From positions 310,001 to 374,000 of the forward strand of contig NZ_JACHMO010000001.1 in assembly GCF_014205015.1 (NCBI RefSeq): a DNA stretch of 64,000 bases, in the 5' to 3' direction. Of this stretch, positions 21,478 to 47,221 are shown piece by piece. The stretch is from Saccharothrix ecbatanensis. GTDB lineage: Bacteria; Actinomycetota; Actinomycetes; Mycobacteriales; Pseudonocardiaceae. Made by a program: the position numbers and the translations under genes. Numbering within the stretch: position 1 is the first letter of the stretch; every line of letters begins with the position of its first letter. The notes beneath the pieces are model-generated. The model made no database searches. It had not been told where the DNA came from and worked only from the letters and a program-made list of their open reading frames with translations.

Positions 21478-21493
21478 TCGAACTGGTGTTCGT
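21478..21493 (+). promoter_or_regulatory. LexA SOS box upstream of ruvC
   Basis: TCGAACTGGTGTTCGT matches the actinobacterial LexA consensus TCGAAC-N4-GTTCGA at 11 of 12 positions. It lies 24 bp before the ruvC start. Damage-inducible ruvC is known in mycobacteria, so control of ruvCAB by LexA is a strong inference. Confidence 0.8.
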
Positions 21494-21516
21494 CGGCGGT
21501 GTTTGAGGGGACCAGC

Positions 21517-22134
21517 GTGCGCGTGTTCGGAGTCGACCCCGGCTTGACCCGGTGCGGGTTCGGGGTGGTCGACGGCGGTCCTGGTCGGACCGTTCGGCCG
21601 GTGGCCGTGGACGTCGTGCGCACGCCCGCGGACATGGACTTGGCGGTGCGGCTGCTCCGGCTGTCCGAGGCGGTCGAGGAGTGGCTGGACCGCTACCGGC
21701 CGGAGGTCGTCGCCATCGAACGCGTGTTCAGCCAGCACAACGTCCGCACCGCCATGGGCACCGCGCAGGCGGGCGGCGTGGTGGCGCTGTCGGCCGCACG
21801 CCGTGACCTGCCGGTCGTCTTCCACACCCCCAGCGAGGTCAAGGCCGCCGTCACCGGCTCCGGCCGTGCGGACAAGGCGCAGGTGACCACAATGGTCACC
21901 AAACTCCTCGGCCTCAAGACCGCCCCCAAGCCCGCCGACGCCGCCGACGCCCTGGCCCTGGCCATCTGCCACCTGTGGCGCGCGCCCATGCGGTCACGCC
22001 TGGAGGAGGCGCAGGCGAGGGCGGCTGAGATCGCCCGCACCCACCGCGCGAGACTGGCGCAGGCCAGTGCGCAGGCCAGTGTCCGACTGTCGACCCCGTC
22101 GACCGCCGCGAAAACCGGAGGTGAGCCCGAGTGA
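21517..22134 (+). CDS. ruvC: Holliday junction resolvase RuvC
   Basis: A 205-residue endonuclease that cuts four-way junctions moved by RuvAB. The RNase H-like core shows VDPGLTRCG with Asp7, VAIERVF with the conserved Glu, and the C-terminal DAADALALA acidic pair. GTG 21517 is chosen because TGAGGGG lies 7 bp upstream; an earlier GTG would overlap that site. The C-terminal tail is Ala/Arg-rich and repeats QASAQAS. It is first in a ruvC-ruvA-ruvB operon; its stop overlaps the ruvA start (GTGA). Confidence 0.96.
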
Positions 22135-45270: not shown

Positions 45271-45292
45271 GGGCACTCCGTTTGACCGTAGT

Positions 45293-45308
45293 TCGAACGC
45301 GTGTTCGA
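45293..45308 (+). promoter_or_regulatory. Perfect LexA SOS box upstream of the splB-like gene
   Basis: TCGAACGCGTGTTCGA is an exact match to the actinobacterial LexA consensus TCGAAC-N4-GTTCGA. It ends 8 bp before the radical SAM start codon. The orthologous gene in mycobacteria is a known LexA target, so damage induction is expected. It may also affect pnuC, whose start is 23 bp away on the other side. Confidence 0.88.
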
Positions 45309-45316
45309 ATGGGCTT

Positions 45317-47221
45317 ATGCGATGGGACGGGCAGAAGGACGGGGCTGACCGGCAGCAGGCTCTGCCGGGGTTGCCGGGGCTGCTGCGCAGCGTACGAACT
45401 CCCGACTTCGCCGACATCGTGTTCCACGAGGTGAACGCCAAGAGCGTGCTGAACAAGGTCCAGGGCGGCGGGCTGCCGTTCGGCTGGACGCTCAACCCGT
45501 ACCGGGGCTGCACGCACGGCTGCACGTACTGCCTGACCGGCGACACGCCCGTGCTGCTCGCCGACGGCCGCACCAAGCCCATCGCCGAACTGACCGTGGG
45601 CGAGGACGTGTTCGGCACGTCCGAGGGCCGGTTCGTGGTCACCCGCGTGCGGGCGCACTGGACGACTGCCAAGCCCGCGTTCCGGGTGACGTTGAGCGAC
45701 GGCACGCAGGTCATCGCGGGCGGCGACCACCGGTTCCTCACCGACGAGGGTTGGAAGCACGTCACGCCCGGCCGTTGCGACGACTTCGAGGAACGCCCGT
45801 TCCTGGTCAAGGGCGCGCAACTGGTCGGGACGGGCCGGTTCGCCGCGCCGCCGACGCAGGGCGAGCAGTACCGCACCGGCTACCTGTGGGGCGTGGTGCG
45901 CGGCGGCCTGCCGACCCACCCGGACGTGATGGCACGGCTGCGCGAGTACACCGGCGGCCGGGTGCCGCGCGAGCAGGACCTGGTCGAGTGGCCGACGACG
46001 CCGGGGGAGGAGTGGTCGAAGGGGTTCCTGGCGGGTCTGTTCGACGCGCGCGGCAGCTCCACCGGCGGGCAGTTGGCGATGTCGAGCGCGGACAGCGCGG
46101 TGTTCGAGGCGGCCGTGCTGGCGTTGACGCGGCTGCGCGTGTCGCACGTGGTCGAGGTGCGCGGGGTGCGGATCGTCGGCGGGCTGGCCGAGCGGCTGCG
46201 ATTCCTGCACCTGGTCGGTCCCGCGATCCCGCGCGGCAACGCGGTCGAGGGCATGGCCGTGCCCGTGACGTCCCGGCTGGCGGTCGTGTCGGTCGAGTCG
46301 CTGGGCGTGACGCGGACGCTGTACGACATCACCACCGGCACCGGCGACTTCGTGGCCAACGGCCTGGTCAGCCACAACTGCTTCGCCCGCAACACGCACA
46401 CGTACCTGGACATGGACGCGGGGCGCGACTTCGACACCCAGGTGGTGGTGAAGGTCAACGCGGTGGAGGTGCTCAAGGCTCAGCTGCGTTCCCGTCGCTG
46501 GCAGCGCGAGCACGTGGCCATGGGCACGAACACCGACCCGTACCAGCGGGCGGAGGGCCGGTACGCGTTGATGCCGGGCATCATCCGGGCGCTGGCGGAC
46601 TCCGGCACGCCGTTCTCGATCCTCACCAAGGGCACCGTGCTGGCCCGCGACCTCCCGCTGCTGGCGGAGGCGGCGTCGTCCGTGTCGGTGGGCATCGGGG
46701 TGTCGCTCGCGTTGCTGGACCGGGACCTGCAAGCGGGTCTGGAACCGGGCACGCCGACTCCTCAGGCGCGGCTTGACCTGGTGCGCCGGGTCCGTGACGC
46801 GGGGCTGCCGTGCGGGGTGTTCGTCGCGCCGGTGCTGCCCCGGCTGACCGACTCGGACGAGCAGTTGGACGAGCTGCTGGCGTCCATCGCGGCGGCGGGT
46901 GCGACGGGCGTGACCGTGTTGCCGCTGCACTTGAGGCCGGGTGCGCGGGAGTGGTTCGCCCGGTGGCTGGTGCGGGAGCGGCCGGACCTGGCCGACGACT
47001 ACCGGGAGCTGTACGCGCGCGGGTCCTATGTGGACGCCCGCTACCGCCGCATGCTCACCGCCCGGATCCGGCCACTGCTGGCCAAGCACGGCTTGGACGT
47101 GCGCGCCAAACGTGAGGAGGTGGGCGTGCCGGGTGACGAGGAGGGCCTGTGGCCGGAAGGCAGCCTCCCCGCTTCGACCCCGCCCGCGCCGGTGGTGCGG
47201 GAGCAGTTGACCCTGCTCTGA
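45317..47221 (+). CDS. splB: SplB-like (Rv2578c-type) radical SAM protein containing an intein
   Basis: A 634-residue precursor; the spliced protein would have 351 residues. The extein begins LPGLLRSVRTPDFADI and reaches RGCTHGCTY at residues 63-71, then an intein of 283 residues, then CFARNTHTYLDMD from residue 355. Only after splicing are the cysteines Cys65, Cys69 and Cys355 arranged as CxxxCxxC to hold the [4Fe-4S] cluster of a radical SAM enzyme. The rest (MGTNTDPYQRAEGRY, FSILTKGT, SLALLDRDLQ) matches the SplB/Rv2578c family, related to spore photoproduct lyase; the substrate is not known. ATG 45317 lies 8 bp after a perfect LexA box, consistent with a DNA-damage role. Confidence 0.93.
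   Translation: MRWDGQKDGADRQQALPGLPGLLRSVRTPDFADIVFHEVNAKSVLNKVQGGGLPFGWTLNPYRGCTHGCTYCLTGDTPVLLADGRTKPIAELTVGEDVFGTSEGRFVVTRVRAHWTTAKPAFRVTLSDGTQVIAGGDHRFLTDEGWKHVTPGRCDDFEERPFLVKGAQLVGTGRFAAPPTQGEQYRTGYLWGVVRGGLPTHPDVMARLREYTGGRVPREQDLVEWPTTPGEEWSKGFLAGLFDARGSSTGGQLAMSSADSAVFEAAVLALTRLRVSHVVEVRGVRIVGGLAERLRFLHLVGPAIPRGNAVEGMAVPVTSRLAVVSVESLGVTRTLYDITTGTGDFVANGLVSHNCFARNTHTYLDMDAGRDFDTQVVVKVNAVEVLKAQLRSRRWQREHVAMGTNTDPYQRAEGRYALMPGIIRALADSGTPFSILTKGTVLARDLPLLAEAASSVSVGIGVSLALLDRDLQAGLEPGTPTPQARLDLVRRVRDAGLPCGVFVAPVLPRLTDSDEQLDELLASIAAAGATGVTVLPLHLRPGAREWFARWLVRERPDLADDYRELYARGSYVDARYRRMLTARIRPLLAKHGLDVRAKREEVGVPGDEEGLWPEGSLPASTPPAPVVREQLTLL
45530..46378 (+). other. Intein (283 residues) with degenerate LAGLIDADG endonuclease domain
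   Basis: The intein starts with Cys (block A, CLTGDTPVLLADG), has block B around AGGDHRFLTDEGW with its His, block F (TLYDITTGTGDFVANGLVSHN) and ends His-Asn before Cys+1, so the splicing residues are complete. The middle (about residues 110-235) resembles a LAGLIDADG homing endonuclease. The second motif FLAGLFDARGSS keeps its Asp, but the first (GYLWGVVRGG) has no acidic residue, so the nuclease is probably dead. The extein residue at -3 is an iron-sulfur Cys, as in the Pyrococcus MoaA intein. Confidence 0.92.

Follow-up and report, generated by a model that had tools for sequence, protein, structure and literature searches.

A probably ageing intein inside the cluster motif of an Rv2578c-family radical SAM protein with a conserved upstream LexA box in Saccharothrix

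Introduction

The Pyrococcus MoaA intein has a radical SAM protein as its host. For the intein of P. abyssi it has been reported that a disulfide between the extein cysteine at position -3 and the first intein residue, Cys1, can stop splicing (PMC3922620, PMC10663303), and the structure of an engineered redox trap of the N-extein has been solved (3nzm). Oxidation is reported to block splicing of the M. smegmatis DnaBi1 intein in vivo, the nucleophile being tied in a disulfide (PMC6195587), and zinc on the initiating nucleophile is reported to stop the same intein (PMC7360933). The intein described here lies in a 64,000-nucleotide stretch of Saccharothrix ecbatanensis (below, the window) and, like that of P. 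abyssi MoaA, has a cysteine at -3 and Cys1; MoaA belongs, however, to a different radical SAM family and to another domain of life, and the trap has been shown for MoaA, whereas here it is a putative one. With DnaBi1 the window intein has in common that it is actinobacterial and that its nucleophile may be blocked, in DnaBi1 by a disulfide or by zinc, while DnaBi1 is a class 3 intein in a helicase host and has the partner cysteine inside the intein.

The combination of protein and intein is already known: NCBIfam holds it as NF038136, "intein-containing Rv2578c family radical SAM protein", and the window protein shows no architectural difference from it. Rv2578c itself is under LexA control. 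In Streptomyces venezuelae a radical SAM gene, vnz_31145, is given as enriched in LexA ChIP-seq and as responding to mitomycin C (PMC9380542), and SVEN_6313 is named as the member of the Rv2578c family in this species (PMC12924846). What is described anew here is the SOS box, the single-site history of the intein and the decay of its homing endonuclease (HEN); no title among the open-access literature matches listed concerned an intein of an Rv2578c-family protein. A first-pass annotation of the window had proposed a switch with two inputs, in which transcription of this gene responds to DNA damage and activation of its product to redox state, and it had rightly pointed to the MoaA precedent.

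Sample

The NF038135 profile found matches in 47 of 60 relatives and in 177 of 394 class genomes. We analysed 145 loci, the window's own included and a distant archaeal match (L060) left out; after one more was dropped, as its start lay beyond the contig (L111), the remaining 144 gave 133 distinct proteins. Of these 51 contain the intein, and 82 are the intein-free orthologues at the same site which the first-pass annotation had recommended looking for; since the sample was picked partly for inteins, the two numbers are no estimate of frequency. One record titled Rhodococcus rhodnii (L049) groups tightly with loci titled Kibdelosporangium and Actinosynnema, and its name may be wrong or the record contaminated.

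The precursor and its cluster motif

The coordinates of the locus are collected in Table 1. The product of the gene matches NF038136 with 807.7 bits (cut-off 700) over the whole profile, 1-574 of 574, and NF038135 with 506.3 bits (cut-off 430) over 1-317 of 317. All of the 7996 candidates scored in a protein database search were significant, many of the best 120 sharing the NF038136 name, and the nearest named relatives are proteins of Saccharothrix. In the intein the N-terminal profile TIGR01445 scores 32.3 bits, over its cut-off of 24.5, and Pfam PF14890 31.6, under its cut-off of 35.8; structural matches to the Hint fold were found, and Cys1, the C-terminal His-Asn and Cys at +1, the marks of a class 1 intein, are all in place.

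Table 1. Coordinates of the features at the locus, as positions in the window
Feature	Position	Strand	Basis or remark
-35-like hexamer TTGACC (predicted)	45282..45287	+	begins 11 nt ahead of LexA box; TTGA enriched in relatives
LexA (SOS) box TCGAACGCGTGTTCGA	45293..45308	.	palindrome perfect in fixed positions; pattern search; conserved in relatives
-10-like hexamer TCGAAT (predicted)	45305..45310	+	17-bp spacer; read from sequence
Rv2578c-family radical SAM precursor, intein-containing	45317..47221	+	634 aa plus stop; NF038136, NF038135 profiles
N-extein, 71 aa	45317..45529	+	translation
Cys65, first cluster cysteine, intein position -7	45509..45511	+	present in 133/133
Cys69, second cluster cysteine, intein position -3	45521..45523	+	present in 133/133
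Intein, 283 aa, Cys1 (C72) to Asn283 (N354)	45530..46378	+	TIGR01445; Hint-fold matches
Intein block B, GGDH in place of TxxH	45719..45730	+	alignment of 51 inteins
First LAGLIDADG motif, degenerate, GYLWGVVRGG	45878..45907	+	acidic residue lost; sequence comparison
Second LAGLIDADG motif, degenerate, GFLAGLFDARGS	46022..46057	+	Arg replaces acidic residue before Gly; sequence comparison
Cys355, intein +1, third cluster cysteine of spliced enzyme	46379..46381	+	present in 133/133
C-extein, radical SAM barrel, incl. stop	46379..47221	+	PF04055, 52.6 bits

The intein stands directly ahead of the third cysteine of CxxxCxxC, complete and with 283 residues, as had been read from the window at first sight; box and intein end had also been placed correctly, while the gene itself runs on beyond the intein to 47221. 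In the spliced protein the cluster motif CTHGCTYC is formed by C65, C69 and C355. The precursor already reads C65-THG-C69-TY-C72, where C72 is Cys1 of the intein, and after splicing C355 takes the same place. The earlier statement that the enzyme has no [4Fe-4S] cluster until the intein is removed does not follow from this sequence, because Cys1 completes the CxxxCxxC motif in the precursor at the right spacing.

Operator and predicted promoter

The LexA box ends 8 bp before the ATG, in agreement with the first reading of the locus, and is the sole perfect TCGAACN4GTTCGA of the window; the whole genome of 9.69 Mb holds 16 of them, and the reversed control pattern does not occur in it. We scanned with Pfam 20 ORFs adjoining the other 15 perfect boxes (8 of the 20 without a Pfam match). 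Genes of lexA, of an AlkB-like 2OG-Fe(II) oxygenase, of a GyrB-type topoisomerase and of a protein with the PriA 3'-DNA-binding domain are found there, as well as Fic, TetR, LysM and response regulator genes, which are not obvious SOS genes. As a part of these neighbours fits the SOS response, we regard the pattern as the SOS box of this organism.

In the relatives 90 of 133 regions have a box with at most one mismatch in the roughly 120 nt ahead of the radical SAM gene, against a background of 2 in 442,365 positions of their loci, and the core GAACN4GTTC lies no more than 70 nt from the start in 107 of 133 (background 8 in 445,823 positions). Among the 111 relatives whose box has at most two mismatches, 48 have TTGA in the 16 nt that precede the box, 41 of them at exactly 11 nt; a control window has it in 1 of 111. 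The predicted -35, spacer and -10 would put the transcription start at or near the ATG, with a leaderless transcript expected, so that the LexA box would overlie the spacer and the -10 hexamer. These patterns support SOS control of the radical SAM gene by an operator that overlaps its predicted promoter and is common across the class; LexA would bind this operator, and DNA damage would lift it off the promoter.

In one family of loci, f33, which on our guess is probably Streptomyces and in which none of 23 loci carries the intein, 18 of the 23 have a core whose end lies 32-45 nt ahead of the start. The S. venezuelae gene vnz_31145 is similar to the window gene in being radical SAM and LexA-linked, though the site listed for it, with first base at -61, is unlike these f33 cores (PMC9380542).

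The enzyme and its dispensability

Fold comparison of the enzyme gave spore photoproduct lyase (SPL), NifB and lipoyl synthase with similar scores, the radical SAM barrel of SPL being among the best matches. The essential fourth cysteine reported for SPL (C141 in B. subtilis, 43 residues beyond the last cluster cysteine; PMC3742179) has no conserved counterpart in extein positions 73-199 of the 133 proteins, where cysteine is met only at position 125 (38/133) and at 85 (5/133) and the window protein has none. Many positions of the 133-protein extein alignment are invariant, but among the cysteines of the window extein invariance is limited to the three cluster ligands, and C216 (extein numbering) is conserved as Cys in 113 of 133. 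It is the regulation of the gene that suggests a role of the enzyme in DNA damage.

The gene is probably non-essential. Among 24 genomes of the same genus 17 have full-length matches, all with intein-sized spans, and seven have the gene missing or broken: it is unmatched in five, truncated in one (G002, profile 1-171) and, in one more (G021), split across two frames after the intein. A Streptomyces orthologue is described as disrupted by a prophage, from which its authors infer no significant impact on fitness, and they also doubt the SplB annotation of this family member (PMC12924846).

Distribution and decay of the intein

In all 51 intein-bearing proteins the intein occupies a single site before the same cysteine, and none of the 51 has lost Cys1, the terminal His-Asn or Cys+1. 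Its presence is sporadic. On the extein tree of the 133 proteins (a quick tree without bootstrap) presence and absence take 16 changes, at least 12 of them forced by well-supported branches, and even close neighbours differ in intein state (L102 and L127; L009 and L090). The intein tree is weakly resolved, with 7 of 48 inner branches starred; on it the 17 Saccharothrix inteins form one side of a branch with support 90, the inteins of family f34 likewise form one side of a branch, and those of f51 group with one of family f18 (L101). Distances on the intein and extein trees correlate with r = 0.54 over 51 rows, a value reached in none of 500 shuffles. When viral contigs were scanned with the window protein, a search that extends no further than close relatives, no case of phage carriage was found.

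Twenty of the inteins are 143-166 aa long, and no HEN motif was found in them; the other 31 have 266-347 aa. Both acidic residues of the LAGLIDADG motifs, which we take to be the catalytic ones, are kept in 8 of 51 (in 9 if L012, whose first motif is odd, is counted) and are gone in all 17 Saccharothrix inteins examined (283 or 284 aa). They are also gone in L043, L044 and L090; L014 and L046 have a partial or ambiguous set. In the window the two motifs end in RGG and DARG, where an active LAGLIDADG homing endonuclease would have an acidic residue at the end of each, and PF14528 reaches only an E of 0.082. Averaged over 120 Saccharothrix pairs, dN/dS is 0.146 in the N-extein and 0.284 in the C-extein (200 aa); in the splicing parts of the intein it is 0.223 (residues 1-90) and 0.265 (244-283), and in the HEN remnant (91-243) 0.474. 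Taken with the loss of the HEN motifs, these ratios fit a homing intein which has been left without its endonuclease and, as it appears, is held for splicing.

From this analysis it would be logical to suggest, and we regard it as likely, that we deal with an ageing allelic intein, late in its homing cycle, in a LexA-repressed and probably non-essential gene, and with no evolved switch linked to SOS. An ancestor of the intein would have homed into a conserved run of codons that offered the required cysteine at +1, and its homing endonuclease would have decayed afterwards; the intein would persist since it is seldom lost precisely and selection maintains splicing. When DNA damage removes LexA from the operator over the promoter, the precursor would be made, the intein with its Cys1, His-Asn and Cys+1 would excise itself autocatalytically with no cofactor needed, and the ligated exteins would regain CxxxCxxC for a [4Fe-4S] cluster. 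Three observations go against this reading: the intein-sized spans of 17 of 17 full-length Saccharothrix genes, and the place of the 17 analysed Saccharothrix inteins on one side of a branch of the intein tree, fit an inability to lose the intein but also its usefulness; raw counts have the box more often where the intein is present; and the threonine of block B is replaced by glycine in the window, which might slow the first step.

Does the box follow the intein?

In raw counts a box with at most one mismatch stands before 46 of 51 intein genes and before 44 of 82 intein-free ones (43/59 outside f33 and 1/23 within it). The exact core within 70 nt gives 46/51 against 61/82 (42/59 outside f33, 19/23 within it). 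The excess with the intein is partly due to the 17 near-identical Saccharothrix genes, minus which both measures fall to 29 of 34 intein genes. We compared further 12 independent pairs with and without the intein, taken on well-supported branches of the extein tree, a test of low power at this number. For the box with at most one mismatch the pairs differ on average in the same way as the intein in 1.7, in the opposite way in 0, and show no difference in 10.3; for the exact core the averages are 1.9, 0.7 and 9.4. An argument for a purpose-built switch from co-occurrence was tried on this material and rejected: the raw counts favour a link, but on the tree the 12-pair test shows no association. 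Within the low power of the comparison, box and intein look as if they vary independently among relatives, and for this reason we read the intein as a selfish element; with only 12 pairs and no significance either way, a weak link between the two would still be compatible with the data.

The first-pass annotation was right that the extein residue at -3, Cys69, is a cluster ligand. Cys -7, Cys -3 and Cys1 are present together in 51 of 51 intein proteins, and a disulfide of Cys -3 with Cys1 in the precursor is chemically possible, so that the arrangement for a redox trap, with its MoaA precedent, stands as annotated. Yet Cys -3 is no sign of selection for a trap, because it is a cluster ligand and is present in all 82 intein-free homologues.

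A full two-input switch would have LexA set the amount of precursor and a reversible Cys69-Cys72 disulfide hold splicing back as long as the cytosol is too oxidising for an O2-sensitive radical SAM enzyme. The reports on P. abyssi MoaA, the engineered trap structure, the in vivo block of DnaBi1 by oxidation and the somewhat commoner box in raw counts speak for it. We nevertheless consider it unlikely, in view of the ubiquity of Cys -3, of the few pairs in which box and intein go together, and of an intein that is sporadic and decaying in a gene that is often missing. Of the switch as first annotated, SOS control has support from the sequence, while an evolved coupling finds none, the box being unchanged in most pairs. 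On the ageing-intein reading, the Cys -3/Cys1 disulfide may delay splicing under strong oxidation, but this would be incidental to the site.

Cys1 as a possible ligand, and the splicing residues

Cys1 might also serve as a surrogate third ligand in the precursor, where a [4Fe-4S] cluster, or Zn or Fe, on C65, C69 and Cys1 would keep the nucleophile from acting in splicing, and splicing would then read the iron-sulfur or metal state of the cell. The exact spacing in the window, the three cysteines kept in every intein protein and the stop of DnaBi1 by zinc (PMC7360933) favour this idea. Against it, Cys1 is part of the active site of the Hint fold, and the geometry there may forbid cluster binding. 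Cys1 is common to many inteins, and its presence is for that reason no sign of design. Structure models do not decide on cluster binding, as both are uncertain at the cluster loop: in the AlphaFold model of the precursor residues 62-69 and 356-378 are under pLDDT 50, and in that of the intein-free protein (from 5 sequences) residues 51-98. We dropped the precursor model as a proof of a broken cluster loop, given that the loop is below 50 in the intein-free model too. On balance we hold a trap of this kind to be quite improbable.

The first position of block B is Ser in 39 of the 51 inteins, Gly in 12, the window among them, and Thr in none; the His is kept in the window. Threonine at this place is said to assist the first splicing step (PMC10663303), and its replacement by Gly makes slow splicing conceivable. 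That the intein is splicing-dead or very slow, the gene on its way out and the protein mostly inactive, as the GGDH-like block B of those 12 and the broken gene copies in two genus genomes could hint, is very hard to believe with Cys1, His-Asn and Cys+1 intact in every intein, purifying selection on the splicing parts and many invariant extein positions.

The family lends itself to asking, on natural material, whether an intein at a cofactor motif regulates its host or is simply tolerated, as one enzyme, mostly with an SOS box, occurs with an apparently intact homing intein, with a decayed one, with a mini-intein and with none, sometimes in close relatives. If Cys1 did bind a cluster in the precursor, protein splicing would be tied to iron-sulfur status in a new way, the dose being set by LexA, and any Cys1 intein just ahead of the last cysteine of CxxxCxxC could act in the same way.

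Neighbouring genes and other boxes

Divergent from the radical SAM gene, the segment 44620-45270 holds a gene of an NMN transporter (PnuC), followed by a gene with an AAA_28 domain. As its likely GTG start is about 20 bp from the LexA box, pnuC may be repressed by LexA too. A pnuC match is present in 15 of 25 named loci, mostly just upstream of the radical SAM gene, and in one of them (L051) about 2 kb away.

Elsewhere in the genome the other perfect boxes (L151-L165) adjoin a Fic-domain gene, mycothiol-related genes and several ORFs with no Pfam match, which are possible new SOS genes. Within the window a one-mismatch SOS box, TCGAACTGGTGTTCGT, lies at 21478-21493, 5 nt ahead of an ORF at 21499-22134 (+) whose product matches RuvC (Pfam, 189.9 bits); RuvC is among the named LexA targets in S. 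venezuelae (PMC9380542).
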